DNA from: Kiloniellales bacterium
GTDB taxonomy: Bacteria > Pseudomonadota > Alphaproteobacteria > Kiloniellales > JAKSDN01
Direction of reading: 5' to 3'
DNA: 64,000 bases
Assembly (NCBI GenBank): GCA_028280455.1
Contig: JANQLT010000163.1
Span: 1 to 64,000, forward strand
Shown: positions 96 through 21,617 of the stretch, piece by piece
How the letters are laid out: each line of letters starts with the position of its first letter
Numbering within the stretch: position 1 is the stretch's first letter
Notes under the pieces: model-generated
What the model was told of the DNA's origin: nothing
Database searches by the model: none
The model's input: the letters and a program-made list of their open reading frames with translations, nothing else
Made by a program: the position numbers and the translations under genes

Positions 96-863
96 TTAGT
101 CGAGGCGCAGGCGGCCGTTGTCGGTGCCGACGTTCCAGAACTGCTCGTTGTGCGCCTGGGAAGCCTCGAGCAGGTCCTTGATGGCGGCGAAGCAGGGCTG
201 GCGATGGCCGTGGTAGTCGACCAGCGGACCGATCGGCTCGAAGCTGAGGCCGAAGCGCCGGATGAGCCGGATCAGGGCCGGCTCCATGACCGCGAAGAGA
301 TGGGTGATGCGCTGCTCGATGCTCATCAGCAGGCAGGCCCGCAAGAGCCCGAGCGTGATGAAGGGGAGCTGGCGTCGGCTGACCTCGCTGTCGGCGGCGG
401 CGTCGCCCCAAGTCGTGTCCGCGAAGCGCTCTTCGCCGAGACGCCGGCGATAGCGCTTGGAGACGGCGAAGCGGGAGATCTCGGCGCAATGGGCGAGGTC
501 GAAAGGCCCGGCCGTTTGGATCAGCTCGACCGGGCAGACCCGCTCGATGGGCAGGCTGTCCTCCGGCCGCTCCGGGTCCGGCAGGATCAGCCGGACCGCG
601 CCGCTGACCATGCCGCTCGGCCGGTGCAGCAGGAGACTGTGAACCGAATGGCTGTCGAACTCGTCGGTCTCCAGGCCGTCGGGATTCTCGGCCGGATCCT
701 CGAAGGCGTTCTCGACGCAATAGACCTGATAGCGGAGCCGAAAGGCCTCTTCCAAGAGCGCGGGCGAGTCGACGAGCACGACCTTGAACCAATGGTCAAA
801 GCCGGGAGGGTCATCCGCTGCGGCTCGCGGCTCGGCCGCGAGATGGCTGCTTTGTAGTGGCAT
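96..863 (-). CDS. PEP-CTERM/exosortase system-associated acyltransferase
   Basis: The 255-residue product resembles the GNAT-like acyltransferases found next to exosortase (PEP-CTERM) loci, which are related to acyl-homoserine-lactone and N-acyl amino acid synthases. The N-terminal segment around residues 38-60 (EEAFRLRYQVYCVENAFE) carries the R-x-x-V-Y signature of that fold, and residues 75-135 (SGAVRLILPD, EISRFAVSKRYRRR) match the central acyl-donor core. No signal peptide is visible, so a cytoplasmic enzyme is expected. It is transcribed alone, away from the glmS group. Its acyl donor and acceptor cannot be read from the sequence. Family assignment is good; the role in protein sorting is inferred from the family and from prsT 5 kb away. 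Confidence 0.85.
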   Translation of the reverse strand: MPLQSSHLAAEPRAAADDPPGFDHWFKVVLVDSPALLEEAFRLRYQVYCVENAFEDPAENPDGLETDEFDSHSVHSLLLHRPSGMVSGAVRLILPDPERPEDSLPIERVCPVELIQTAGPFDLAHCAEISRFAVSKRYRRRLGEERFADTTWGDAAADSEVSRRQLPFITLGLLRACLLMSIEQRITHLFAVMEPALIRLIRRFGLSFEPIGPLVDYHGHRQPCFAAIKDLLEASQAHNEQFWNVGTDNGRLRLD

Positions 864-5422: not shown

Positions 5423-8257
5423 TCAGTTGGCTTCCAGCCTCTGCATCAGGGCCTGGGCGGCATCGGCCGAGGCGAACTCGCGGTTCTCGGAGAGGATCCG
5501 CGTCAGCAGGCTCTTGGCTTCCTGCCGCTTGCCCGTCTGCTCGAGCGCGGCGGCGAAATGGTAGGCGATGTCGGGATCGTCCGGCGCCCTTTCGAGGGCA
5601 TCCGCCAGGATGCTCTTGGCCCGCTCGAGCTCGCCGCGGTTGAGCAGGATCCAGCCGAGCGTGTCCATGATGGCCGGCTCCGAGGGCGCCGAGGCCAGCG
5701 CCTGCTCGGCATAGGCGACGTCCCGGCGGTCGTCCTTCTTGTGGAACAGCCAGGCCAGGTTGTTCAGCAGGACCGGGTCCTGGGGCCGCTCGACCAGAAG
5801 CACCTCGTACTGATAGATCGCCTCGTCGTAGAAGCCCTCGTCGAGCAGGCGGCCCGCCAGGTACATGCGCGCCTGCGCGTCGCGCGGCCGCTGGTTGACC
5901 CAGTTCAGGAGGTCGGTCATGGGCGTTACGGGATCGCCGCTGGCCGCCCAACGGGCTTCGTAGAGCGCGATGGCGAGATCGCCGGTCTGGATCCTGTTCC
6001 AGGCTTTCTCGTAGGCCTCCAGGGCCTCGGCGGGCCGCCCCATACGCATCAGCACGCGCCCCTCGACCTGGTCGACGGCGGGCGCGCCCGGGAAGGCGTC
6101 GCGCATGGCCTCGACGTAGGTCAGGGCGACGCTGCCCTTGTCGTCTTCCAGCTCCAGGTCGATCAGCCGCAGATAGGCGGTGAGCTGGGTCTTGTCGGCC
6201 TGCAGCACCTGGAAGAGCTGGTCCTTCGCCAGGCTGCGGTCGCCGCGGCCCAGGTGGATCTCCGACAGGCGATAGCGGTGCAGCGGCTCCTTGGGCTGCA
6301 TCTCGATCAGCCGGCCGAGCAGCGGCAGGGCTTCGTCGTCCTTGCCGCGCCGAATCAGCACCTCGGCCTGCATGCCGAGGGCGCGCGGGTCTTCGTGAAA
6401 GGCCGTAGCGGTCTGCTCCGCCTGCTCCTGCGCCGCCTCGAGGTCGCCGCCGTCGATGAACAGCCGGGTCAGGGCCAGGCGCGGCTCGACCAGGCCGGGC
6501 GCCGCCGAGACGGTCTTCCTCAGCCAGCCTGCCGCTTTGGCCGTCTCGCCGGCCTGCCGCTCGATCTCGGCCAGCAGCAACATGGCGTCGATGTTGTTCG
6601 GGCTCTGCTGCAGCACGGCCTCGGAGAGCGCCCGGGCGCTGTCCGCCTCGCCGTCGCGCAGATGCAGGCGCGCCAGGTTGTTCCGGGCGGGCAGGAAGCC
6701 CGGCGCCATCTCGATCACCCGCTCGAAGGCGAGGCGCGCCTTGGGCAGGTCGCCGAGGCCGAAATGGGCTCCGCCCTGGATGTAGAGCGCCAGCGGGCTC
6801 TCGCTGTCCCGCGCCATGAGCTGCTCGGCCACCGCCAGCGCTTCCGGATAGGCCTCCGATTGCAGACTGGCGAGGCCCTTGAGGAAGCTCAGAAGGACCT
6901 GCTCGCCGGACGGCCCCTCGCCGCCGGCCGCCTCGCCGACCGGCTCGTCGAGGTAGCCCAGGGCGAGCTGGCCGAAGGCAAGCTGCATGACCGAGCGCAG
7001 GTTGCCGGGCGCCATCTCCAGCGCCCTTTCCAGCGCGCCGGTCGCGGTGGCGTAGTCCTCCAAATGCAGGTAGGCGCTGCCGAGCAGAAGGTAGAGCTGC
7101 GGGTCGTCGGTGATCTGCCGGCTGGCCTTCTCCAGCAGCGCCGCCGCCTCGGCCGCTGCCCCCTGCTTGATCAAGGTGGCGGCCAGCAGCTTCTGGCCGG
7201 GCCGCGAGCTGGGCACCAGCTTTAGCAGGCGCGAGAGTATCGCGCGGCTCTGTTCGAGCTCCTCCAGCGCGTAGTGCAGCGTGGCCCGGAACAGGAGGGC
7301 CGGCGGGTAGTTCTCGAGCTGCGGCCCGAGGTTGAGCAGGGCCGAGCGGGCCTCCTCGAACTTCTGCTGCCGCGCCAGGATCACCGCATCGAGGTACTCG
7401 ACCATCGGGTGCTGCACCGAGCGCGAGCGCATGGCCTCGATCTCGATCTTGGCGAGGGCGTCCTCGTTGAGGTCGATCAGCACGGTGATGCGACCGAGAC
7501 GCGCGGCGATGCCGTCGGGCGCCACGGCCAGCGCCCTGTCGAAATTGGCCATGGCGCGCTCTGTGTCGCCGGCCAGGCGGCGCAGCTCGCCCTTGAGCAG
7601 GAGCGCGCGCACCAGGGTCTCGTCGAGCGCCAGGGCGCGGTCGACCTGCCGCTCCGCCTCGCCATGCTCCCGCATGGCCGAGAGGATCTCGGCGAGCCGC
7701 ACGAAGGTGCGCGGATCCTGCGGGCTGAGCAGCGTCGCGCGGCCCAGGGCGTCGGCCGCTTCCTCGTTGCGGTTCAGGCCGTAGAGCGCCTCGCCGCGCA
7801 GGATCGCGGCCTCGGTCGCTTGCTCGTCCGCGGCCGGGTTGCGGTCCAGTTCCGCCAGCACCTCCTCGTAGCGGCCCTGCAGCAGCCTGGCGTAGCCGAG
7901 ATCGATCCGGAGCTGCTCCTCGGGAATGCCGAGCTGAGCCGCGGCCCGGAACTCCTTCTCCGCCGAGTGCCCGTCGCCCAGCTCGACGTAGATCTCGCCC
8001 AGCAGGGCCCGCGCCTCGCCGAAGTCGGGATCCTGCTGCAGCGCGTTCTTGAGCTGGATCTTGGCCGCCTCGAGATTGCCGGCGGCGCGGTGGTCGAGCG
8101 CCTCCTGGAGATAGGCCAGGGCCTCCGGTGCCGGCTGGTTCGCCGCTGCGCTCGTCGGCGCCGCCAGCGCGAGCAGGGCGGCGAGCGCGAGCGCCGCCAG
8201 GGGGCTGCGGCTGAGGGTGCGCCCGGTCGTCTGTCTCGGGCCCTGAAAGCCTATCAT
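5423..8257 (-). CDS. prsT: PEP-CTERM system TPR-repeat protein PrsT
   Basis: The product is 944 residues: a signal peptide (about 15-40, ending APTSAAA) followed by TPR-type helical hairpins over almost the whole length, for example AYLQEALDHRAAGNLEAAKIQ and DPDIAYHFAAALEQTGKRQEA. Length and architecture match PrsT, the large periplasmic TPR protein encoded in exosortase A/PEP-CTERM loci, where it is thought to scaffold export or assembly of extracellular polysaccharide and sorted proteins. A lipobox cysteine is not obvious, so it may be soluble in the periplasm. It stands 70 bases upstream of the tRNA-like gene and has its own leader region. Another TPR scaffold such as a BcsC-like protein is the main alternative. 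Confidence 0.85.
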   Translation of the reverse strand: MIGFQGPRQTTGRTLSRSPLAALALAALLALAAPTSAAANQPAPEALAYLQEALDHRAAGNLEAAKIQLKNALQQDPDFGEARALLGEIYVELGDGHSAEKEFRAAAQLGIPEEQLRIDLGYARLLQGRYEEVLAELDRNPAADEQATEAAILRGEALYGLNRNEEAADALGRATLLSPQDPRTFVRLAEILSAMREHGEAERQVDRALALDETLVRALLLKGELRRLAGDTERAMANFDRALAVAPDGIAARLGRITVLIDLNEDALAKIEIEAMRSRSVQHPMVEYLDAVILARQQKFEEARSALLNLGPQLENYPPALLFRATLHYALEELEQSRAILSRLLKLVPSSRPGQKLLAATLIKQGAAAEAAALLEKASRQITDDPQLYLLLGSAYLHLEDYATATGALERALEMAPGNLRSVMQLAFGQLALGYLDEPVGEAAGGEGPSGEQVLLSFLKGLASLQSEAYPEALAVAEQLMARDSESPLALYIQGGAHFGLGDLPKARLAFERVIEMAPGFLPARNNLARLHLRDGEADSARALSEAVLQQSPNNIDAMLLLAEIERQAGETAKAAGWLRKTVSAAPGLVEPRLALTRLFIDGGDLEAAQEQAEQTATAFHEDPRALGMQAEVLIRRGKDDEALPLLGRLIEMQPKEPLHRYRLSEIHLGRGDRSLAKDQLFQVLQADKTQLTAYLRLIDLELEDDKGSVALTYVEAMRDAFPGAPAVDQVEGRVLMRMGRPAEALEAYEKAWNRIQTGDLAIALYEARWAASGDPVTPMTDLLNWVNQRPRDAQARMYLAGRLLDEGFYDEAIYQYEVLLVERPQDPVLLNNLAWLFHKKDDRRDVAYAEQALASAPSEPAIMDTLGWILLNRGELERAKSILADALERAPDDPDIAYHFAAALEQTGKRQEAKSLLTRILSENREFASADAAQALMQRLEAN

Positions 8258-8768: not shown

Positions 8769-9647
8769 GTGATTCGAACGCAGGCTCTTGCTGGCTTTTT
8801 CGCGGCAACGGCGTCCCTCCTCATGGCGGGACCCGCGATGGCGATGCCGCTCAACGAGCTCGAGAGCCAGCCGAATGCGTCGTCCCCCTCGGCGGCGCAG
8901 AGCGAGCCTGGCTGGCCCGACGACCAGCGGTTGCGGCCTGTCGCGTCCGTCGGATCGGGCGAGCTGACCAGCGGCTTCGACATCGGCCTGACCGACCAGG
9001 GGCTGACCCAGAACTGGCTGCGCGTTCGGATGCACAGCGGCAGCGCGAGCGATTGGGCGCCGCTCTTGACCTCGGGCCTGCCCGACCGGTTCGCGTTGGA
9101 AGACATGGAGGCGCGAGTCGAAGCCGACGGCAGCCAGATCACGGTCGACGAGCTGACCAGGCGCTTCTTGAAGCAGGAGGCCCGGGCCGGGCGGAGCCCG
9201 ATCAGCTTGAGCATCCCCGGCGCAGACGGTGACGGCGCGGGTGTCGATCTCGGCCTCAACATGGTGCGCAGCCTGCTGGACCACAAAATGGATCGCGAGC
9301 TGGCCCTGACGGCGCTGTCGCACACGCTCGAGATCAGGGAGTTCCTGCTGAGAGTGTCGGCCTCCGATCAGGTCCGAGACTACGAGACGGTGGTCGGCTC
9401 GAACAGCGCACGGCGGAGCAGCACGGCGGCGGCCGCGACACCGCAGAGCGACAACAGCCAGCAGAAGACCTACGCCTCACCCGAGCTGGGTCAAATTCAA
9501 CGCGAGAACGAAGGCTCCGTGATCGACTCCCTGACGGAGTTCGTCATGGAGTTCCTGGTCGATATCCGGACGATCTTCTTCTTCGGCGGCTCTCTGTTTC
9601 TCATTCTGCTGCTCTCTTTCGCGGTCTCGCGCTGGAGCAGAGCCTAG
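8769..9647 (+). CDS. Secreted protein with C-terminal membrane anchor, unknown function
   Basis: The 292-residue product starts at GTG and opens with a clear signal peptide (IRTQALAGFFAATASLLMAG, cleavage after AMA at about residue 25). The middle part is acidic and serine-rich with predicted helices (about 110-210) and a low-complexity linker (about 215-245). The C-terminus is a single hydrophobic segment (FFFGGSLFLILLLSFAV) closed by the basic tail SRWSRA. That layout resembles a sorting signal (hydrophobic helix plus basic tail) but no PEP or other tripeptide motif precedes the helix, so simple membrane anchoring is more likely. I do not recognise the family. It ends just before the second repeat copy. 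Confidence 0.7.
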   Translation: MIRTQALAGFFAATASLLMAGPAMAMPLNELESQPNASSPSAAQSEPGWPDDQRLRPVASVGSGELTSGFDIGLTDQGLTQNWLRVRMHSGSASDWAPLLTSGLPDRFALEDMEARVEADGSQITVDELTRRFLKQEARAGRSPISLSIPGADGDGAGVDLGLNMVRSLLDHKMDRELALTALSHTLEIREFLLRVSASDQVRDYETVVGSNSARRSSTAAAATPQSDNSQQKTYASPELGQIQRENEGSVIDSLTEFVMEFLVDIRTIFFFGGSLFLILLLSFAVSRWSRA

Positions 9648-9706: not shown

Positions 9707-10792
9707 TTAGCTCGCCGAAAGGCCGGGCACGGCCCCGCGGACGCGGAACCAAGCCTTGATCGACAGGTGGCGCAGCAGCAGCAAGGGCGGCATGCGTAGC
9801 CAGTGGGAGCGAACGTAGAGGCAGCCGAAGGCGGCCTTGGCGATCAAGCTGTGCCGGTGGCGCGGCCGGGGTGTCAGGGTGGTCCGCCCGAGCCAGCCCA
9901 TCAGCAGCGCGATCGGCGCCGGCGGCGCGAAACGCGCCGCGGCATCGCGGCTCGCTTGCGGCACCGGCGTGTCGAGCAGGGCGGTCGTGAAGCCGAGCAT
10001 GTAGTAGTGGACGCGGCCGAGCCCGTGCAGCTCGGCGCGGCTCTCGAGCTCCGACCAGAAGGCCGCCTCGCCGCCGAACTGGATCAAGAGGTCGTGCAGG
10101 TCGACCAGGTCCCGGAAGCCCATGCGGAAGTCTTCGTTGATCAGGTGCACCGCCGCATGCAGCACCATGTCGGCGGGGCAGAGGACTTTCTGGCCGTCCT
10201 CGGTCTCGCGGGCCGCGTTCCACAGCGCCTCGACCTTCGGGCTGACCCGGCTGGTCGGCGGCGCGATGGTGTGGTGCACGTCGGTCGCCATCTCGCGCTC
10301 GGGATGCCAGAGCGGGGCGATCTCGTGCATCCAGGTCTCGTAGTAGTGGACGTCGTAGGCGCGGGTGATGGCCATGGTCCAGCCCGCGGCGAACAGCGAA
10401 TCGCGGACCTGCGAGATCTGGTCGCGCGGCACCATGATGTCGAGGTCGCTGGCCAGCCGGCCCCGCGCCATGGGCAGGTCGAGCGCCAGATAGGCGCTGC
10501 CCTTGAGCAGCAGCAAGGGCACCGGGGTGTCGCGCAAGGCGCGGGAGACCCGGTTCATCTCGAAGCGGATACGGGTCTGGTTGAACTCGGCTTGCACCAG
10601 GCCGTCGTGCAGCAGGTTGCGCGCTCGCTCGGGGATCGCGTCCAGCAAGCCCGCGGCCTCGAGGGCGACGTAGAGGCGGGCGACCAGCACCTCGCGCTCG
10701 GCCTGGCGGATCAGCTCGTTCCACTGCCCCTTGCTCAGGCGCGTCAGGCTGGCGGGGTCCTTGATGGCCGTGAGCAGAAGCGGCTCGGTCAC
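9707..10792 (-). CDS. Nucleotidyltransferase family protein of the HprK-related cassette
   Basis: The product (361 residues from a GTG at 10792) matches the uncharacterised nucleotidyltransferase family PF14907. The active-site strand and loop are visible: PVPLLLLKGSAYLA followed by RLASDLDIMVP with the paired aspartates that bind metal and NTP. The GTG overlaps the TGA of the upstream kinase gene (GTGA), which argues for this start over an upstream ATG at 10894 and for translational coupling. Relatives of this family tailor lasso peptides alongside HprK-like kinases, and others sit in exopolysaccharide loci. Here it should add a nucleotide or similar group to a small molecule or peptide; the substrate is unknown. 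Confidence 0.85.
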   Translation of the reverse strand: MTEPLLLTAIKDPASLTRLSKGQWNELIRQAEREVLVARLYVALEAAGLLDAIPERARNLLHDGLVQAEFNQTRIRFEMNRVSRALRDTPVPLLLLKGSAYLALDLPMARGRLASDLDIMVPRDQISQVRDSLFAAGWTMAITRAYDVHYYETWMHEIAPLWHPEREMATDVHHTIAPPTSRVSPKVEALWNAARETEDGQKVLCPADMVLHAAVHLINEDFRMGFRDLVDLHDLLIQFGGEAAFWSELESRAELHGLGRVHYYMLGFTTALLDTPVPQASRDAAARFAPPAPIALLMGWLGRTTLTPRPRHRHSLIAKAAFGCLYVRSHWLRMPPLLLLRHLSIKAWFRVRGAVPGLSAS

Positions 10793-11727
10793 GACGCCAG
10801 GGCCTCCCGCTCCGGCTTGGCCGCCGCCAGCAGCTCGTCGAGCGTCGCGATCGCCTCCTCGTTGTCGCTGTATTCGAGGTGATAGATGTCGCAACGCTCG
10901 ACCACCCGGGTCAGGGTCTCGAAAGCCGTCTGGCCGAGCAGCAGGTAGTTCACGGCGTTGTCGATCAGCCGCATGAAGGCTTCGGATTTCTCGACCGGCT
11001 GGACCTTCAGGGCGGCGCCCCGCTTGAAGGCCGGGAAGATGACCAGGGCCGGCAGGCAGGTCTCGTTGAGCGCCGTCAGGCTCTCGCCCTGGCTGCGCAG
11101 GTAGGACAGCGAGCCCTTGATGGTGCCGTCATAGCGCCGGCTGAGCCTTTCGGCGCCGCCGGCATCGGCGATGATCCTGATCGACTCGTTCTTCAGCGAG
11201 ATCGGCCGCGGGCTGGCCTGCAGGCGCCCGTCGCTGCCGCGCAGGATCGCGAACTCGTCCGAGAGCAGGCGCCAGCCGGCCAGGGACAGCAGGGCGCTGA
11301 GCGTGCTCTTGCCGGTGCCGGAGGGCGCCGGGAAGATCGCCGCCCGGTCGCCGCGCCCCATGACGGCGGCGTGCAGCAGCAGGTAGCGGGATATCTGCGA
11401 GGCGACGCACCAGTTGAGCGCCGACTCGAGCAGCGGGTAGGCCAGGTCCCGCGGCATCGGCTCGAAGGGGTCGAGGTCGTCGATGTAGGCGCAGACGTTC
11501 TGCCGGACATAGCGGCGCAGCGGCGAGGGCGGGGCGATCCGCACGAAGAAGTCGCAGATCTCGGTTTCCGTCTCGACCGGGAACTCGGCGTAGAGCTCGG
11601 CGACCTGCTGGGCGAGCTGGTCCACGTCCGTGCGCAGGTTCGCGCGAAAGGAGCCGATATCGAGGTTGATACCGGGACCCTTGAGCAGCGAGGAGAGCGT
11701 CTCGGACGGCAGGTCCTTGAGGATCAT
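10789..11727 (-). CDS. HprK-related kinase A
   Basis: The 312-residue protein is a relative of the C-terminal half of HPr kinase/phosphorylase. A Walker A loop is clear (FPAPSGTGKSTLSALL, about residues 133-148) after LLHAAVMGRG, and the following WRLLSDEFAIL aligns with the HprK nucleotide-binding region. The HPr-binding signature typical of true HprK is not apparent, and no HPr gene is nearby. It overlaps the PqqD-like gene upstream (ATGA at 11724-11727) and the nucleotidyltransferase downstream (GTGA), making one translationally coupled unit. By analogy with lasso-peptide kinases it may phosphorylate a peptide, possibly the Lys-rich product at 12068-12469. That substrate is inference. Confidence 0.85.
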   Translation of the reverse strand: MILKDLPSETLSSLLKGPGINLDIGSFRANLRTDVDQLAQQVAELYAEFPVETETEICDFFVRIAPPSPLRRYVRQNVCAYIDDLDPFEPMPRDLAYPLLESALNWCVASQISRYLLLHAAVMGRGDRAAIFPAPSGTGKSTLSALLSLAGWRLLSDEFAILRGSDGRLQASPRPISLKNESIRIIADAGGAERLSRRYDGTIKGSLSYLRSQGESLTALNETCLPALVIFPAFKRGAALKVQPVEKSEAFMRLIDNAVNYLLLGQTAFETLTRVVERCDIYHLEYSDNEEAIATLDELLAAAKPEREALAS

Positions 11728-12026
11728 TCGGGGGCCGGCTCGATGATGCCGAGGTCGTCCAATTTGCCGAGAATCTGCGACACAGCCTTGTCGAGCTCGG
11801 AATCGTTGTCAACTTCGAGAAAACGCGCGAGCTGCGCCCGGGCTTCGTCCCGCGTCGCCTGGCCCTCGTCGATCACCTTGAGGACCTCCGCCACGGCGAC
11901 GTCGAGGAGCTGGGTGTCGCCGGACAGCGGGTGGTAGATCACCATATCGCCGTCCCAGTCGCGCCAAAGCAGCTTGTCGCGGCCGCAAACCCGCCAATGT
12001 GTCTTGGGGTCGTCGAACTTTCGCAA
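11724..12026 (-). CDS. PqqD-family peptide chaperone of the HPr-rel-A system
   Basis: This 100-residue protein has the PqqD/RRE (precursor-peptide recognition) fold pattern: a beta-rich N-terminus (WRDWDGDMVIYHPLSGDTQLLD) followed by helices (VAEVLKVIDEGQATRDEARAQLARFL). PqqD-like proteins bind the leader of a ribosomal peptide and present it to a modifying enzyme. The apparent start is TTG at 12026, with no better ATG in frame. It is the first member of the coupled trio with the HprK-related kinase, and 41 bases downstream of the small Lys-rich gene. This pairing matches the HPr-rel-A families described from other genomes, whose product is unknown. Confidence 0.85.
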   Translation of the reverse strand: MRKFDDPKTHWRVCGRDKLLWRDWDGDMVIYHPLSGDTQLLDVAVAEVLKVIDEGQATRDEARAQLARFLEVDNDSELDKAVSQILGKLDDLGIIEPAPE

Positions 12027-12067
12027 TGGGGCCTTACGTCGTGCGACGCTCTATGGGCGCTGCAGCC

Positions 12068-12469
12068 TCAGATCTTCTTCGACTTCGACTTGCAGACTAG
12101 GCTGACGAAGGTCTTCTTGCCCTTGTCCTTGGTCTTGTCCTTGCCCTTCTTGCCGGTCTTCGTGCCGCTCTTCTTGCCCTTGTCCTTCTTCACCTTGACG
12201 GCCACGGTGACGCAGAGCGAGCGGCCGGCGCCGGACTTCTTGTCCTTCATGCCGCCGCCGTCTTCCCAGTCCCAACCGTCGTCGGCGAAGGCCTTGCGGC
12301 TGACCGACATAATCAACGGCAACGATGCCGCACCACCTGCCAGGAAGCGGCGGCGTGCAGAAAGCCTCTTGCGCTCGGCCGGCGTCAAAGCAGTCACCTG
12401 CTCAGAGCCCGGCAGCTCCTTGCCGCCTTCAGGCTCTTGGTTGTCGCCGTCCATCTGGTCCCCAGCCAT
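12068..12469 (-). CDS. Lys-rich protein with Tat-like signal; candidate substrate of the cassette
   Basis: The 133-residue product begins with an acidic segment (1-30), then a twin-arginine-like signal (SARRRFLAGGAASLPLIM, about 38-55) with a likely cleavage after RKAFA, then a short DGWDWEDGGG segment and an extremely basic C-terminal half made of K, G, T and D (KDKGKKSGTKTGKKGKDK and similar). Two cysteines flank the basic stretch (SLCVTV and SLVCKS), each in a short beta-like stretch. It is the first gene of the cassette with the PqqD-like protein, kinase and nucleotidyltransferase. I recognise no family. Placement and composition suggest an exported, modified small protein or precursor, which remains unproven. 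Confidence 0.65.
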   Translation of the reverse strand: MAGDQMDGDNQEPEGGKELPGSEQVTALTPAERKRLSARRRFLAGGAASLPLIMSVSRKAFADDGWDWEDGGGMKDKKSGAGRSLCVTVAVKVKKDKGKKSGTKTGKKGKDKTKDKGKKTFVSLVCKSKSKKI

Positions 12470-14880: not shown

Positions 14881-15516
14881 ATGCGGAATTTCAAGCTGAT
14901 CAAGCGCGACGTCGACGTCGGCCCGCTGCTCGAGGAGATCAAAGCCAACGGCGATATGTGGGATGCCGACCCCACGCGCACGTCGCTGCTGCCCCACCGC
15001 GAGACCCGCACCATCATCCTGCGCAGCCATACCGAGCCGGCTAGCGCGGACAAAGCCTATCGGGAGCGCTTTCCGGGCTGCTGGACCTACATCGGCCGGC
15101 CGACAACGGTCGCGCACAAGTTCCCCCTGGCCTGCGCGTTCGTGGAGGGCTTCGCCAGAAGCGTTGCCGGTGTCCTGGGCCGCGTCGCCCTGGTCAATCT
15201 CGCGCCCCAAGGCACGGTCTATCCCCACATCGACGAGGGCAACTACTACCGAATCCGCTCGCGCTACCATCTCGTCCTGCAGTCCGCCGCCGGAAGCCGC
15301 CTCAATACCGGCGGCCACGGGATCACCATGCAGGAGGGCGAGCTTTGGTGGTTCAACAACAGGATCATGCACCACGCTCACAACCACTCCGACCAGGATC
15401 GGATCCATATCATCATCGACCTGGCGTCGCCCGAATCCCTGGTGACGGCCGGCTACCGCTTCTCGCGCAATCGCGCGGCGGACCTCTACCGCGCGCTGCG
15501 CCGACGCGTCGCCTGA
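14881..15516 (+). CDS. Aspartyl/asparaginyl beta-hydroxylase family oxygenase
   Basis: The 211-residue protein matches the Fe(II)/2-oxoglutarate AspH family. The iron ligands are seen as H116-x-D118 (YPHIDEGNYY) and a distal histidine at 164 or 165 (RIMHHAHN), with R174 (DRIHIIID) positioned to bind 2-oxoglutarate, and the typical GELWWFNN strand. It lacks a signal peptide, so it acts in the cytoplasm. It stands 21 bases upstream of the first ATP-grasp gene, so the three plus-strand genes likely form one operon. Hydroxylation of an amino acid or of a peptide-bound Asp/Asn/Pro is expected; the substrate is unknown. Confidence 0.85.
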   Translation: MRNFKLIKRDVDVGPLLEEIKANGDMWDADPTRTSLLPHRETRTIILRSHTEPASADKAYRERFPGCWTYIGRPTTVAHKFPLACAFVEGFARSVAGVLGRVALVNLAPQGTVYPHIDEGNYYRIRSRYHLVLQSAAGSRLNTGGHGITMQEGELWWFNNRIMHHAHNHSDQDRIHIIIDLASPESLVTAGYRFSRNRAADLYRALRRRVA

Positions 15517-15537
15517 CCTGGGGTCTTCCCAGGCTCG

Positions 15538-16803
15538 ATGTCACAGAGCAAGCAAGCGATAGACCAGGGATCGATCCTCCTCGTCGGCAACTACCGGCCG
15601 AGCTTGCCCGTCGCGCGATCGCTGTCGACGGCCGGCTATCGGGTGGTTCTCGCGCGCGACGGCTTCTCCGCCGCGGAAAGGTCGCGCTTCGTCGACGAGA
15701 CCTGGCAGCCGTCGCCTTGGCGCTCCGGCTCGTACGATTTCGTCGGAGAGCTGCAGCGCTTCCTCGAGCGCCGACGCGACATCGCGGCCGTCTTTCCCGT
15801 CAACCAAGCCAGGATCCTCGAGCTTCTGGCGAGCAGGGACCGCATCTCGGTACCGCTCATCACGGTCGAGCCGGAGACCGTGGCGACCTGCCTCGACAAG
15901 GTGCGCACGACGCGCATCGCGGCCGAAGTCGAGGTGCCGGTCGCGCGCTTCGCGGCCGGGTCCAGTGTCCAGGACCTCTACGACCTGGCCGACGACCTGG
16001 GCTACCCCTGCGTCGTGAAGCGCAACGACGGGATCGAGCACGGCCTGAAGGCGCTGGTCCTCGGCAACGCCAATCAGGCCCGGACCTTCGCAACGAGTTA
16101 CCCGGGCTGGTTCGACAACTTCATGGTTCAGCAGTTCGCCTGGGGCCCGCGATACAACCGCTACTTCATCGCCCACCGGGGTCGTATTCTGCGCCGCCTG
16201 GATATCAAGACGCTTCGCACGAACCAGATCGACAACACGGGCCTCGGCGTCTCCGGCGTCTCGACCGCGCCCCTGGCGGCGCTCGACGAGCCCAGCAGCC
16301 GGCTCATCGAGGCGCTGGGCTACAGCGGCATCGGCTGCCTGCAGTTCCTGGTGGACGACGTCAGGGGCACGATCGCTTTCCTCGAGATCAACCCGCGCAT
16401 AGGCGGCAACTACGCCTTCACCCAGGACTGCGGCCTCGATCAGGCCAGCGCCCTTGTCGATATCGTGCAGGGCCGCGGGCTCGAGCATTGGGCCGCACCC
16501 TTCGACTACCCGGTCGGCAAGAGATATGCCTGGGTGATGGGCGACCTCGAGGGCCTGGTGCAAAGCCTGGAGACCAGGCAGGTCAGCGGCAGGCAGGCGG
16601 TTTCCTGGTGGCTCAAGGCCGTCGCCGGCGGCCTGCGGGCGGACCACCACTTGCTCTGGCGCTGGGACGATCCCAAGCCCGCGCTCTACCTTGCCAGGCG
16701 GTCGGTTCCCAAGCTCACGCGGCGGGCCGGGCGGCAGGTCGCGCGGATCCTGGTCCATCGCTCCCGCAAGCTTGCCGGCCGGCTTACTCTGCAGGCGCGC
16801 TGA
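15538..16803 (+). CDS. ATP-grasp family ligase, paralog 1
   Basis: This 421-residue protein has the three-part ATP-grasp layout: a preATP-grasp Rossmann-like domain (ILLVGNYRPSLPVARSLSTA, about 13-32), the ATP-binding lobe (YPCVVKRNDGIEHGLKAL, about 156-173) and the metal-binding core EINPRIGGN (283-291), which holds the Glu, Asn and Arg used for Mg-ATP and acyl-phosphate chemistry. It should form an amide or ester bond from a carboxylate and an amine via acyl phosphate. It shares a collinear sequence with the next gene without visible gaps over about 400 residues, indicating a tandem duplication. The substrate is not known. Confidence 0.85.
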   Translation: MSQSKQAIDQGSILLVGNYRPSLPVARSLSTAGYRVVLARDGFSAAERSRFVDETWQPSPWRSGSYDFVGELQRFLERRRDIAAVFPVNQARILELLASRDRISVPLITVEPETVATCLDKVRTTRIAAEVEVPVARFAAGSSVQDLYDLADDLGYPCVVKRNDGIEHGLKALVLGNANQARTFATSYPGWFDNFMVQQFAWGPRYNRYFIAHRGRILRRLDIKTLRTNQIDNTGLGVSGVSTAPLAALDEPSSRLIEALGYSGIGCLQFLVDDVRGTIAFLEINPRIGGNYAFTQDCGLDQASALVDIVQGRGLEHWAAPFDYPVGKRYAWVMGDLEGLVQSLETRQVSGRQAVSWWLKAVAGGLRADHHLLWRWDDPKPALYLARRSVPKLTRRAGRQVARILVHRSRKLAGRLTLQAR

Positions 16804-16837
16804 GGGACCATGACAGCCTGCCGCTTGGTGACCTGCT

Positions 16838-18109
16838 TTGGCGCGACAGGCTGAGCCGAGCCGGCGCCAGGCCGTTCTGCTGATCGGCGACTTCCGGTCG
16901 TCGCTCGTGGTCGCGCGTCTCTTCTCCAGGGCGGGATACCGGGTCGTCGCCACGGTTTCCTCCTTCTCGGCGATACACCTGTCACGCCATGTCGACGACG
17001 ACTGGCGGCCGACGGCGAGCCCTTGGGACACGCCCCTCTTCGTCGAGGCGCTGGAGCAGTACCTTTCGGCGCATCCGGAGATCGTCGCCGTCATGCCGTT
17101 GATGCAGCCGCTCATCGTCGCGCTGCTGCCCTACAGAGACCGGCTCCCGGTTCCCCTCCTGGTGTCGAACTCCGCGGCCATCGAAGTCAGCGACGACAAG
17201 GCGCGCCTCTCGGAGCTGGCGAAACGGCTCGGGGTGCCGACGGCGCCCTTCGTCGTCGGGCGGGGCGCGCAAGAGATCGTCGGCGCCTGCGAGTCGCTGG
17301 GCTACCCTTGCGTCTTGAAGAGCAAGGCCAGCGTCGGCACCGGCGTGCCGATCGTGATCGTTCGGAGCCGGGCGCAGGCCCTGCACGTGGCCGAGCAGCT
17401 ATCGGATAGCTGCGAGGACTTCATGGTTCAGACCTTCACGCCGGGCTGGCGCTGCAATCGCTACTTCATCGCCCATCGGGGGCGCATCCTGCGCTACCTG
17501 GACATCAAGATCCTGCGCACGAACCGCTTCGACGACACCGGCCTTCTGGTGTCGGCGGTCTCGGTGGCGCCCCTGGCGAGGCTCGACGAGCCGAGCGCCC
17601 GTCTGATCGAGGCGCTCGACTACACGGGTATCGGCAACGTCCAGTACCTGATCGACGAGGCAAGCGACAAGAACTGGCTGCTCGAGGTCAACCCGCTGCT
17701 TGGGCCGTCCTTCACCCTGCCCGGCTATTGCGGCCTCGACTCGGCCTCCGCGATCGTCGACATCGCGAAGAACGACGCGCTCGACCGCTGGAGCGCCGAC
17801 TTCAGCTATCCGGCGGGCATGCGCTTCGCCTGGTTCCTGGGAGATATCGGCGGCTTGCTGCTGGCGCTCGAGCGCCGGGAGGTGACCGCCCGGCAGGCAT
17901 TGCGCTGGTTGCTGCAGGCCCTGGGCACGGGACTGCGCGCCGACTGCCACGCGAACTGGGCCTGGGACGACCCTCTGCCCGCCCTCTACATCTGCGCCAA
18001 GCGCTCGCTCCTCTTCACCGCGCGGGCCTTGCCCGGGGCGATGCGGCGCGCCGGCCGCCGCCTGACGTCCCTGTCCGCGGGGCGCCGCCCCGGCGCCGTC
18101 GGTCGATAG
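16838..18109 (+). CDS. ATP-grasp family protein, diverged paralog 2
   Basis: The 423-residue product aligns end to end with paralog 1: VLLIGDFRSSLVVARLFSRA (about 13-32), YPCVLKSKASVGTGVPIVIV (about 156-175), NRYFIAHRGRILRYLDIK in both. The metal-site block is changed: EVNPLLGPS at 283-291 in place of EINPRIGGN, so the family arginine is leucine. It may use a different substrate, or be a non-catalytic partner. No in-frame ATG exists after the TGA at 16829; the first possible start is TTG at 16838, so initiation is unusual. The gap to paralog 1 is 34 bases. Confidence 0.8.
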   Translation: MARQAEPSRRQAVLLIGDFRSSLVVARLFSRAGYRVVATVSSFSAIHLSRHVDDDWRPTASPWDTPLFVEALEQYLSAHPEIVAVMPLMQPLIVALLPYRDRLPVPLLVSNSAAIEVSDDKARLSELAKRLGVPTAPFVVGRGAQEIVGACESLGYPCVLKSKASVGTGVPIVIVRSRAQALHVAEQLSDSCEDFMVQTFTPGWRCNRYFIAHRGRILRYLDIKILRTNRFDDTGLLVSAVSVAPLARLDEPSARLIEALDYTGIGNVQYLIDEASDKNWLLEVNPLLGPSFTLPGYCGLDSASAIVDIAKNDALDRWSADFSYPAGMRFAWFLGDIGGLLLALERREVTARQALRWLLQALGTGLRADCHANWAWDDPLPALYICAKRSLLFTARALPGAMRRAGRRLTSLSAGRRPGAVGR

Positions 18110-18131
18110 TCCCGGCGCTGCCCGGCGCGGC

Positions 18132-18983
18132 TCAGGCCAGCTTGCGCTTGGCCTTTCGCATGGCCCGGATGAAGAAGTACTTCGCGCCGTCGTCCAGCTT
18201 GGAGCGGCCGTAGGGACGCACCGGCCAGCCGCGCCGCCGGAGCTTGGCGTTCAGCCGGTGCACCGCCGCCTCCCGGGCGAGCGGGCGGGAGCGGAAGGTG
18301 ACGCTGAAGGAGACCGAGACCGCCGGGCCGTTCTTCACCCAGTGCGGGCTGTGCACCGGGATGTGCAGGCCCTCGCCGGGCTGCAGGGTGAAGCGCTGGC
18401 AGGACTCGTCCAGCGCCTGCCGGTAGACGACATTGCGATGGGCGCCGCCGTAGTAGCGCTCGATATCGAGCGGGCCCAGCACGCTCTTGTCCCAGGTATG
18501 CAGGGCCTTGCTGCCGACGAGCTGCAGCAGGAAGTTGTGCTCGTCGTCGAAATGGAAAGGCGTCACCGCGCCGGGCGAGGAGAGGAAGATGTAGCCCTCG
18601 ACCTGGTGCGTGCCCGCGGCCCGCGGCTCGCTGTGCGGGGCGATCTGCCGCACGCAGTCGACCAAGAGCCGGCGGTAGTCCGGGTCGGTCTCGACGTACT
18701 TCAAGGCCACCCAGGAGCCGCTCTCGGCGATCCGCTCGATGGTCTGCTCCAGGGTCAAGCCTGTGCGCGGCGTGTGCCCGGGATCCTGGCTGACCGGCAG
18801 GTCGCCGGCGTTGAACTCGACGCAGCGTTTCGGCAGCGCCTTGCCGAGCGCGAGCAGGCGCTCGCGCTCGAACAGCGGGTGGCCGCAGAGCGCATGACCG
18901 ATCCGGAAATGCCGCTCGGGGAAGTGGGTCGAGAAGCAGGCCGCCGCCGTGTCGTCGATGATCAGGTGTCGCGCGGCGCTCAT
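18132..18983 (-). CDS. Cupin/JmjC-like Fe(II)/2-oxoglutarate oxygenase
   Basis: The 283-residue protein carries a JmjC-like double-stranded beta-helix. The iron triad is seen as H144-F-D146 (TPFHFDDEHNFLLQL) and a distal histidine at 211 or 214 (GLHIPVHSPHWV), with K159 in VGSKALHTWD suited to bind the co-substrate. A basic C-terminal tail (RMAKRK-like) may contact nucleic acid or acidic glycan. No signal peptide. It converges on the ATP-grasp genes with a 22-base gap and lies 22 bases downstream of the acyltransferase pair, so it is probably their co-transcribed third gene. Hydroxylation of a peptide or lipid-linked intermediate is plausible; the substrate is unknown. Confidence 0.8.
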   Translation of the reverse strand: MSAARHLIIDDTAAACFSTHFPERHFRIGHALCGHPLFERERLLALGKALPKRCVEFNAGDLPVSQDPGHTPRTGLTLEQTIERIAESGSWVALKYVETDPDYRRLLVDCVRQIAPHSEPRAAGTHQVEGYIFLSSPGAVTPFHFDDEHNFLLQLVGSKALHTWDKSVLGPLDIERYYGGAHRNVVYRQALDESCQRFTLQPGEGLHIPVHSPHWVKNGPAVSVSFSVTFRSRPLAREAAVHRLNAKLRRRGWPVRPYGRSKLDDGAKYFFIRAMRKAKRKLA

Positions 18984-19005
18984 CGTCGGGTCCCCGGAAG
19001 CCGGC

Positions 19006-20193
19006 TCAGCCCTTGAAGAGCGCGCGCAGGCCGAGCTGGCTGCGGGACAGCAGGTCGCGGCCGGCGCAGGCGACGCCGACGATGGGCCGGCGGTCCCGCC
19101 AGAGCCCGTTGATCATCGAGTGGTCGGGCATGGCGCAGGAATCCATCCAGTCGATCGGCGGATCGAATTCGTAGAGCTGGCGGATGTTGTCGATCTCGAG
19201 CTGCACGCCCGGCGAGTAGCGGGCGTAGTCCTCGTCGAAGGCGATCTTGAAGGCGAAGGCCGCGTGGGGCTGGGCGGCCGAGCGGAGGCTGCACTTCAGG
19301 GCGATGGGCCTGTCGTCGAGCGTCAGGGCCTGCATGATCAGCATGCCGTTCTCGGCCGTCTCGCGCAGCAGGCGGCGGAAGTAGCGCCGCCGGTCGGGCT
19401 CGGAGTCGAAGGCGTAGTCCGATTCGCCCTTCCAGCCGCTGGCCTCGACCTTCATGAACTGCTCCGTCCAGCGGTCGATGTTGTCGCCGGGGGCGAAGCT
19501 GCGGAACTCCAGCGCACCGCGCTCCGCCAGGCGGCGGCGCTGCCGGCGCAGCTCCTTGCGCTTCTTGGCGCCGACGCAGCGGCGCAGGTGCGCCTCCGCG
19601 GAGTCCCGGCGCAGGAAGAGGGCGCGCTCGATCTTCAGCAGGGACCGCTGGGCCAGGCCTTTGCTTGCGAGGCCTTGCCGCAGCGCCCGCCAGACCGGGC
19701 CGGTCTCGTTCATGATCGGCAGGTCGAAGACGGCGACGCCTTGGGGCGCGGAGGCGATCCAATCGAGCACCAGGTCGACCACCGGCGCCAGGTAGCGCGG
19801 GTCGATCAGCGGCGTGCAAAGGAAGCTGTTGTGGTGCTGATAGAGCTCGAAGCGCTGCAGCTTGCCGAAGGGGCTGCCCTCGACCAGGCCGAAGGGAACG
19901 AAACCGACCATCTCGTCATGGCCGTTCCGCTCGTCCTGGGCATAGACCAGGACGGCCAGCGCCGGGGGCGGCTCTTCCAGGCATTCCATGCCGACAAGGA
20001 AGGGCACGGGCTCGTAGAAGACGTTGGGCTCGATGGCGCGCTCGGCGAGGGCCTGCCAGGTGAGGAGGTGCTGCTTCAGGTCGCTCGCTTCGTAGGCGAT
20101 CTGCAGCGTCAGGCGCGCCGGCGGCGCCTCCGGCCTTGCCCCGCTCGTCTCGGCAGCCGACGGCTCGTCGCGACCTTGGGGCAGCAGGCTCAT
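19006..20193 (-). CDS. CelD/FemAB-type GNAT acyltransferase 1
   Basis: The 395-residue protein matches the large GNAT-like (CelD/BcsL, Acetyltransf_6) family, in which two GNAT folds are fused as in FemABX aminoacyltransferases. Visible landmarks are LRRCVGAKKRKELRRQRRRL (the long basic helix, about 210-230), the substrate strand MLIMQALTLDDRPIALKCSL (about 295-315), and YARYSPGVQLEIDNI (about 335-350). Such enzymes transfer acyl or aminoacyl groups to surface sugars or peptides. The ATG overlaps the stop of acyltransferase 2 (ATGA at 20190-20193). No signal peptide, so a cytoplasmic or membrane-peripheral site is expected. Confidence 0.8.
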   Translation of the reverse strand: MSLLPQGRDEPSAAETSGARPEAPPARLTLQIAYEASDLKQHLLTWQALAERAIEPNVFYEPVPFLVGMECLEEPPPALAVLVYAQDERNGHDEMVGFVPFGLVEGSPFGKLQRFELYQHHNSFLCTPLIDPRYLAPVVDLVLDWIASAPQGVAVFDLPIMNETGPVWRALRQGLASKGLAQRSLLKIERALFLRRDSAEAHLRRCVGAKKRKELRRQRRRLAERGALEFRSFAPGDNIDRWTEQFMKVEASGWKGESDYAFDSEPDRRRYFRRLLRETAENGMLIMQALTLDDRPIALKCSLRSAAQPHAAFAFKIAFDEDYARYSPGVQLEIDNIRQLYEFDPPIDWMDSCAMPDHSMINGLWRDRRPIVGVACAGRDLLSRSQLGLRALFKG

Positions 20194-21293
20194 TGGCGGA
20201 CCACCTTCCAGAGGCCCAGGCGGATCAGCATGCGCTTGACGGCGGTGCTGCTCAGATCGGTGGCGGCCGAGCGCAGACCGGCCAGCGTGCCCTTGTTGAA
20301 TCCGGCGATGCCCCAGAACTCGCGGCGACGGTTGACCCAGGTCCTCTTGAAGGGGTCGTCGCCGATTCCGAAGTCGATCCGCTCGACCTTGTCGACGTCG
20401 ATGACGTGGCGGAACATCTCGTAGGTCAGGAGCGTGCCGACCGAGAGCCGCGAGAAGCGCGCGTCGTAGGCCAGGCGGTAGCAGTGGGCGACGCCGGCGG
20501 TGACCATCCAGATCTGCCCGGCCGCCGGCTGGCCGTCGACATAGTAGAGCCCGAGGCGCAGCACGCCTTTCGCCGAGGCCGAGTGCAGCAGGCCCATGAT
20601 GTAGTTCTTGTCCATGGGGTGGCGGCCCTGCCAGCTCGCCACCAGGACGCGGACGTAGTCGGAGATCGCCGGCGCGAGCGGCTCGCCGCCTTGCACGAGC
20701 TGGAACTGGCCGAAGGCCTCCTTGTCCATGCGCTTGTTTCGCCGGCGTATGGTGTTGCGGAGCTGACTCGGCCGTTCGGCCATGTAGGCCTCGGCCGACT
20801 TGCCGGCGACGTCCCCGTACCAGTTGCCGAACAGGAAGTAGGCCTGGGTGATGAAGCCGTGCTTGCGCAACAGCTCGCCGACCACCTCGATGAGTCCGTC
20901 CCGCGGATCGAAGGCACCGAACTTGACGATGTCGGTACGCGCCGCGCCGCGCCCCAGCGCTTCGGCGACCTGCTCGATCACGTCGCGGCGCAGGCCGTTC
21001 TCCGGGTGGGTGTATGCCCGGTAGAGCATCTGATCGGGGTGCGCGAAGTGGATCGCGTTGGAGCGCAGAAAGCCGACCGGGCCGCTCGGGCTGATGCCGA
21101 CCGTGATGCCCTGGGGCGAGCCCGGCTCGCCCACCGCGAAGCCGCGCAGCTCGGAGCCGGGCAGCAGGCCGTGGCGCTCGAAATTCTCATAAAAGGCTCT
21201 GGATACGAAGAAATCCGACCCTTTGTCTTCGTCCAGAATTCTTAGAAATGCTTCCGGCACATGGCTCAGGCCGCGATATGCCTGGACGGTCAT
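20190..21293 (-). CDS. CelD/FemAB-type GNAT acyltransferase 2
   Basis: This 367-residue protein (ATG at 21293; an in-frame start at 21368 adds 25 basic residues with no family match) is a second Acetyltransf_6 protein. Landmarks are the basic helix RNTIRRRNKRMDKEAFGQ, LRLGLYYVDGQPAAGQIWMV, and ARFSRLSVGTLLTYEMFRHV. It is the first gene of the minus-strand trio with acyltransferase 1 and the JmjC-like oxygenase. Two different FemAB-like transferases next to two ATP-grasp enzymes suggest stepwise building of an aminoacyl or peptidyl decoration. The substrate cannot be named from the sequence. Confidence 0.8.
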   Translation of the reverse strand: MTVQAYRGLSHVPEAFLRILDEDKGSDFFVSRAFYENFERHGLLPGSELRGFAVGEPGSPQGITVGISPSGPVGFLRSNAIHFAHPDQMLYRAYTHPENGLRRDVIEQVAEALGRGAARTDIVKFGAFDPRDGLIEVVGELLRKHGFITQAYFLFGNWYGDVAGKSAEAYMAERPSQLRNTIRRRNKRMDKEAFGQFQLVQGGEPLAPAISDYVRVLVASWQGRHPMDKNYIMGLLHSASAKGVLRLGLYYVDGQPAAGQIWMVTAGVAHCYRLAYDARFSRLSVGTLLTYEMFRHVIDVDKVERIDFGIGDDPFKRTWVNRRREFWGIAGFNKGTLAGLRSAATDLSSTAVKRMLIRLGLWKVVRQ

Positions 21294-21617
21294 GGCGTTG
21301 CGCCTCGCTCTGCGCGGCGGTTCCCGGCCCCCGGTCGGAGTCGCTCGAAGGGCTCGCGGGCTTGGCAAATCGGCCCTATTTCAAGGGGTTTAGCCGCTGG
21401 ACGGCAATATCTCCCGTACGCCTTAACGCAGTCTTCACGTGCCGTACACCTTCTGCCCTGAAAATGATCCATGCTGGCTGTCGCCTTGCCGCGTAAAAAA
21501 GGTTAGGAAGACCAAGCCCATGTGCGCCGGGGAAAAGGTCCGAAAAGTGTTTTTGACAATTGCGGAGCATGACGCCCGGCGGCCCCCTCAGGCCATAGCA
21601 TAGGCGGAAAAACCTCG
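21294..21617. other. 324-bp divergent intergenic region
   Basis: This gap lies between acyltransferase 2 (minus) and the peptidoglycan-binding protein gene (plus). It is less GC-rich in its centre. A TTGACA box occurs at 21553-21558 on the plus strand, 60 bases before the ATG at 21618, but I see no -10 at the right distance. No coding frame is supported. Confidence 0.45.

Follow-up and report, generated by a model that had tools for sequence, protein, structure and literature searches.

HprK-like kinases of the paeninodin type (PadeK, ThcoK, SyanK and PsmK) phosphorylate a serine of their precursor peptides, and the nucleotidyltransferase-like partner PsmN is required for the hexoses that are placed on that phosphate in lasso precursors (review PMC9266682). 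In Bacillota, the pathway of the linear polyphosphorylated peptides (LPPs; Popov et al. 2026) combines a recognition element for ribosomally synthesised and post-translationally modified peptides (the RiPP recognition element, RRE) with an HprK-like kinase and an NTP-transferase (PMC13381572). The kinase LppK polyphosphorylates Ser3 of the LPP core, a residue adjoining the leader, and the precursors, of 35-200 aa, have a conserved N-terminus and a highly variable C-terminus and are encoded at capsular polysaccharide loci; the main text of that paper makes no mention of Proteobacteria, PqqD, twin-arginine signals or exosortase (PMC13381572). Here we analyse a stretch of 64,000 nucleotides from a Kiloniellales bacterium (Alphaproteobacteria; contig JANQLT010000163.1 of assembly GCA_028280455.1), referred to as the window, in which four minus-strand genes encode a small protein with a twin-arginine-like signal, a PqqD-like protein, an HprK-related kinase A and a nucleotidyltransferase of family PF14907. 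We present evidence that the small proteins of such loci share a leader with diverse cargo behind it, and we argue that the four genes probably form a leader-guided protein-modification system.

The cassette compared with described systems

An original prediction, made from the letters of the window, had described four coupled genes here, and all four open reading frames (ORFs) are present at that place and on that strand. They are transcribed from 12469 to 9707 in the order small protein, PqqD-like protein, kinase and nucleotidyltransferase, with an ATGA overlap between the PqqD stop and the kinase start (11727-11724), a GTGA overlap between the kinase stop and the nucleotidyltransferase start (10792-10789), and 41 nt between the stop of the small gene and the TTG start of the PqqD gene. 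The three family assignments were borne out by curated models, the PqqD-like protein scoring 54.8 bits against TIGR04353 ('HPr-rel-A system PqqD family peptide chaperone'; cut-off 35), the kinase 303.9 bits against TIGR04352 (cut-off 200) and the nucleotidyltransferase 160.7 bits against PF14907 (cut-off 31.2). The window kinase and PqqD are therefore the pair that NCBIfam names the HPr-rel-A system; the model names, from which this comparison is drawn, cover the kinase and the PqqD chaperone only. Because NCBIfam names these two components, the cassette is not unseen. It is also common: of 398 Pseudomonadota genomes sampled, 61 have a kinase that scores above the family cut-off. Yet it is unnamed in the literature that we searched. 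No paper on the HPr-rel-A system or on the cassette was found there, and within the same literature the substrate family, the leader of twin-arginine translocation (Tat) type, the spread of cargo types and the distribution in Pseudomonadota appear to be undescribed.

LPPs are the nearest characterised system. Similar to the window cassette, they rely on a discrete RRE, an HprK-like kinase and an NTP-transferase and need no lasso cyclase, but they have their own SpI-like leader peptidase, MsbA-like transporter and YxxPxVLxHQ leader, none of which is part of the window cassette. They are also peptides of Bacillota, whereas the window cassette belongs to Pseudomonadota and combines a twin-arginine signal with protein-sized folded cargo. 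Lasso tailoring of the paeninodin/pseudomycoidin type likewise directs an RRE, an HprK-like kinase and a 'nucleotidyltransferase' to a precursor serine; the window cassette differs in lacking a macrolactam cyclase, a B2 protease, the [YW]xxP leader motif and a short lasso core. In the neighbouring genes that were scanned, up to about 10 kb away, we found neither a macrolactam cyclase (C) nor a B2 leader protease, as had been predicted, and a lasso peptide cluster was rejected on this ground; neither an SpI-like leader peptidase nor an MsbA-like transporter was found there. Strict membership of the LPP family was rejected because no such peptidase, no transporter and no YxxP leader turned up, and the weaker statement that the cassette works like an LPP pathway is retained. 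The claim that the system has no described product still holds within Pseudomonadota, although the 2026 description of LPPs gives it a close analogue in Bacillota. By this analogy, the best reading is that the cassette would be a Gram-negative counterpart of the LPP pathway, with protein-sized substrates and a leader that also serves as a Tat signal.

The kinase and the nucleotidyltransferase retain catalytic motifs. A discrete RRE fold is predicted for the window PqqD-like protein by AlphaFold (AF2; predicted local distance difference test, pLDDT, 92), and the best Foldseek matches of this model are TbiB1 (5v1u/5v1v, bound to lasso leaders), followed by the lasso B1 protein 6jx3 with its leader and PqqD (5sxy). 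The kinase profile aligns with the HPr kinase/phosphorylase structures 1jb1, 2qmh and 1ko7 around the catalytic His, the P-loop Lys and the Asp. H119, K140 and D157 of the window kinase correspond to these residues and, together with E158, which takes the place of the second HprK Asp, are invariant in 11 kinase homologues. In the nucleotidyltransferase, the KG...DxD motif and a third conserved Asp are kept in 118 homologues.

Leader-bearing small proteins and their cargo

Kinase loci were gathered without reference to the small gene, from genomes searched across the class and the phylum and from a single GTDB scan that used a kinase alignment, and the resulting set comprises 131 kinase-bearing loci from GTDB genomes. 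PqqD lies immediately upstream of the kinase in 116 and the nucleotidyltransferase immediately downstream in 118. In 119 loci a profile of the RR leader picks out a small ORF that lies upstream of the kinase, and inspection added three that the profile had missed (L157, L170 and L171). At one further locus, L025, the leader-bearing ORF (794-1021, 75 aa, with a Pro-rich mature part) is found 3' of the nucleotidyltransferase and not 5' of PqqD. In total, a small ORF with a homologous leader accompanies the kinase at about 123 of the 131 loci, nearly always directly 5' of PqqD; among those without one, L099 ends at a contig edge and L037 falls below the family cut-off. The original prediction had proposed the small protein as the substrate and had named, as the outcome that would speak against it, kinase and PqqD homologues that never occur with a similar small protein. 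The search was run, the pairing just described is what it returned, and the proposal is strongly supported by it.

Because a leader profile of this kind could be circular, it was cross-validated by training on one half of the data and testing on the other. It recognised 39 of 51 loci against 3 of 3901 other ORFs, and in the other half 70 of 80 loci against 0 of 7956 other ORFs. The pairing is also seen from the side of the cargo: a profile of the largest cargo type gave 13 hits over the 398 genomes, of which all 11 that contain the leader adjoin a kinase, and the two that lack it form the C-terminal domain of larger proteins, whose genomes do not encode the kinase.

The small proteins fall into about 15 clusters with no detectable similarity among their mature parts. 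What they have in common is a leader that reads S-R-R-[RK]-[FL]-x-K-x-G, followed by a hydrophobic stretch and T-L-x-S-x-P-x-x-A. In the 117 aligned leaders, a set picked with the leader profile, RR is present in 116 and the ends are AxA-like. A Pfam and NCBIfam scan of 42 representative small proteins returned two isolated weak matches and no family.

The largest cargo type is found at 81 loci, mostly in Betaproteobacteria. Shortly after the signal, in the context C-x-[ST]-P-S-G-F-x-S-G-N-x-S, one serine is present in 100% of the 81 sequences, as the single fully invariant residue of the type, and a second serine in 98%; in a 42-row subset these two are the only invariant columns. In the AF2 model both lie in a low-confidence N-terminal segment ahead of a folded domain of about 130 residues, in which the blocks beyond residue 60 are mostly above 90 pLDDT. 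These serines count in favour of the proposed modification as candidate acceptors; the Ser3 targeted by LppK is likewise next to the leader. In the gammaproteobacterial and sphingomonad groups, a serine that precedes the first Cys by a few residues is invariant, as is a C-x-x-S close to the C-terminus. The C-terminal pattern [ST]C[WFYVIL]xS occurs in 9 of 15 non-betaproteobacterial representatives versus 0.2 expected by shuffling, but it was picked after looking at the sequences and is therefore a lead only.

The window protein fits this family by its leader. It holds ARRRFLAGGAASLPLIMSVSRKAFA, with RRxFL and an AxA-type end, and a twin-arginine motif, a hydrophobic stretch and an AxA-type end are all present in RRRFLAGGAASLPLIMSVSRKAFA. 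The N-terminus is thus consistent with a twin-arginine signal, and export is predicted to depend on Tat, whose component TatC is encoded in the same genome. The leader is homologous to equally placed small ORFs elsewhere (phmmer 2e-6 to L024) and scores 33 bits against the leader profile, and the GC content of the small gene by codon position (0.54/0.47/0.86) is the coding profile of the genome. Searches of the protein against Pfam and NCBIfam models gave zero matches, and no further copy was found in the genome. Its description in the original prediction, as a 133-residue protein with a twin-arginine-like signal and a basic tail with two cysteines, agrees with the RRRFL signal, the 22 lysines, C86 and C126. 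The Lys-rich tail is a true property of this protein (22 of 71 mature residues) but is particular to this genome, and it was rejected as a defining feature of the family because the other cargo types are not Lys-rich. The C-terminus, ...FVSLVCKSKSKKI, has neither a PEP motif nor a transmembrane segment, and the absence of a PEP tail rules out a PEP-CTERM substrate. Given the invariant serines of other cargo groups, candidate acceptors in the window protein would be S79 and S84 near C86, and S128 and S130 after C126.

To assess how the parts of the cassette vary together, we used a partial Mantel analysis over 99 loci. The leader tracks PqqD when the kinase is controlled for (partial r 0.45, to which shared ancestry contributes too), a co-variation that had been proposed as a check of the substrate role, and the mature part tracks the kinase given PqqD (0.56; reverse value 0.27). 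These correlations are what recognition of the leader by the RRE and of the core by the kinase would give.

Several loci deserve separate mention. The main cargo domain (L047, 5075-5647, and 80 other loci) is without a Pfam or NCBIfam family; its model has no match in the PDB (best E 4.9), so that a confidently predicted domain stands without a counterpart among solved structures, and it is possibly a new fold. The C-T-[PL]-G-Y-W-K...LLNA...GCPL domain of the same type also ends larger proteins that have neither leader nor cassette (L194 1-1896, L197 1411-2277). Leader-bearing cassettes in metagenome-assembled genomes labelled Acidobacteria and Planctomycetaceae (L098:3666-4028, L108:5538-5753) suggest either spread beyond Pseudomonadota or mis-binning. 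L182 and L150 are kinase copies without a detectable PqqD, nucleotidyltransferase or small gene nearby, and the gene adjoining the L182 kinase resembles, by eye, an exopolysaccharide glycosyltransferase. Closer to the window, the locus looks patchily distributed among close relatives, because the kinase is over the cut-off in only one of seven genomes of the family, the window's own.

Proposed mechanism and alternative explanations

The explanation that we favour, and consider probable as a whole with its chemistry, Tat exit and surface role, is leader-guided modification of the small protein. The PqqD-like RRE would bind the N-terminal leader, and the HprK-related kinase A would phosphorylate, or perhaps polyphosphorylate, a serine of the precursor in the cytoplasm, by analogy with PadeK, ThcoK, SyanK, PsmK and LppK. 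The PF14907 enzyme would then modify that phosphate, most likely with a sugar and possibly with a nucleotide. Of the two, glycosylation is no less likely than nucleotidylation, because PsmN, the closest characterised homologue, is needed for hexoses on phosphoserine (PMC9266682). The leader would double as a twin-arginine signal, the ATP-dependent steps being completed before Tat exit, and a signal peptidase would remove it after passage. The Tat pathway exports proteins after folding and maturation in the cytoplasm. The absence of a dedicated peptidase or transporter would follow from the leader itself serving as the Tat signal. The mature cargo varies by lineage, and the product probably acts at the cell surface, in many cases in bacteria that have an exosortase A/exopolysaccharide system. 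A shared role of LPPs and the cassette at the cell-surface matrix is a reasonable guess, because LPPs likewise sit at capsule loci. Modification before export, as originally predicted, remains plausible given the twin-arginine signals and TatC, and the phosphorylation that was named with it is predicted from the homologous kinases.

Two alternatives place the activity of the enzymes elsewhere. They might act on another molecule, such as an exopolysaccharide intermediate, a lipid carrier or another protein, with the RR-signal protein merely an exported partner in the pathway. This would suit the exopolysaccharide-type neighbours in the window (PrsT, an exosortase acyltransferase and ManC) and the strong genome-level association of the kinase with exosortase A (XrtA), the kinase being present in 25 of 35 XrtA-positive versus 36 of 363 other genomes (odds ratio 22.7, uncorrected for phylogeny). 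However, 30 of the 61 kinase-positive genomes have no XrtA-like match, the cassette includes a recognition element of a leader-binding fold, the leader co-varies with PqqD, and nothing but this leader is constant among proteins that are otherwise unrelated, and we regard this alternative as improbable. A role in HPr-type regulation, in which the kinase would serve carbon metabolism as a sensor kinase and have no relation to the small exported protein, draws on the remote homology to HPr kinase/phosphorylase. Yet clear HprK similarity is confined to about 45 residues around the P-loop, neither PqqD nor the nucleotidyltransferase has a role in HPr regulation, and the small protein is present at more than 90% of kinase loci; we give this idea hardly any credence. 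Less far-fetched, though in our judgement still quite unlikely, is an ordinary RiPP pathway with a short peptide product, in which an unlinked protease trims the long mature part and the signal is a leader and not a Tat signal. The enzyme set is that of paeninodin-type lasso and LPP clusters, and LPP precursors reach 200 aa, but the cassette lacks a protease, a cyclase and a transporter, the model of the largest cargo type shows a folded domain with high confidence, and the leaders carry RR almost without exception and end in AxA-like sites.

Some observations weigh against leader-guided modification of the small protein. No recognisable small ORF is seen at the kinase loci L058, L150, L154, L181, L182 and L187. 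Related species are over-represented among the 131 loci, so that the counts do not stand for independent events. Loci of the same kinds also supplied the training set of the leader profile, which is why it was cross-validated. The leader tracks the nucleotidyltransferase as well, given the kinase (0.43), and common descent inflates the partial correlations. Glu158 of the kinase stands at the position of the second Asp of HprK. The motif [YW]xxP, carried by the leaders of lasso peptides and LPPs, is nearly absent (2 of 117 leaders, and not in the window protein), and therefore the binding mode must differ. The mature sequence of the window protein is unique, without the N-terminal serine motif and without the C-terminal [ST]CxxS motif of other types.

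Under leader-guided modification, more than 120 loci with very different cargo, spread over many proteobacteria, point to a way of modifying exported proteins that is both widespread and unstudied. If this is correct, leader-guided post-translational modification is not confined to small peptide natural products but also reaches exported cargo of protein size in Gram-negative bacteria, the 'HprK-related kinase A' and its PqqD partner gain a substrate, and a testable link arises between phospho-(glyco)protein modification and exopolysaccharide/exosortase biology. More speculatively, and in our view rather doubtful in this full form, the cassette may be a general route, in Gram-negative bacteria, for the phospho-glycosylation of folded proteins that leave through Tat, in which the RRE reads the Tat signal, the kinase makes phosphoserine, the PF14907 enzyme adds a sugar (possibly tying the protein to exopolysaccharide) and many unrelated surface proteins plug in behind one leader.

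Coordinates and gene neighbourhood

Table 1. Features of the cassette and of its exosortase-related context, in window positions
Feature	Positions	Strand	Details
Small exported protein, candidate substrate	12068..12469	-	133 aa, first cassette gene; ORF
Tat-type signal/leader core (predicted)	12284..12355	-	residues 39-62 (RRRFLAGGAASLPLIMSVSRKAFA)
Predicted mature part	12071..12283	-	residues 63-133; 22 Lys of 71; Cys86, Cys126
PqqD-like RRE protein	11724..12026	-	100 aa, TTG start; TIGR04353
HprK-related kinase A	10789..11727	-	312 aa; H119, P-loop K140, D157, E158; TIGR04352
PF14907 nucleotidyltransferase-fold protein	9707..10792	-	361 aa, GTG start
PrsT, XrtA/PEP-CTERM system tetratricopeptide repeat protein	5423..8257	-	TIGR02917, 586 bits; context, outside cassette
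PEP-CTERM/exosortase-associated acyltransferase	96..863	-	TIGR03694, 257.8 bits; context

The window resembles XrtA/PEP-CTERM exopolysaccharide systems in its genomic association and in encoding PrsT and the exosortase acyltransferase, and differs from them in that the small protein carries no PEP-CTERM tail. It also encodes ManC and other envelope genes, and XrtA itself is found on another contig of the same assembly. Convergent to the cassette, a plus-strand gene at 8769-9647 encodes a protein that has, by eye, a signal peptide and a C-terminal transmembrane segment, with no family match. At 14881-21368 an Asp/Asn beta-hydroxylase (PF05118), two paralogous ATP-grasp proteins, a JmjC_2 protein and two FemAB-like GNATs are encoded together, and this group is possibly another modification or surface-polymer gene set.

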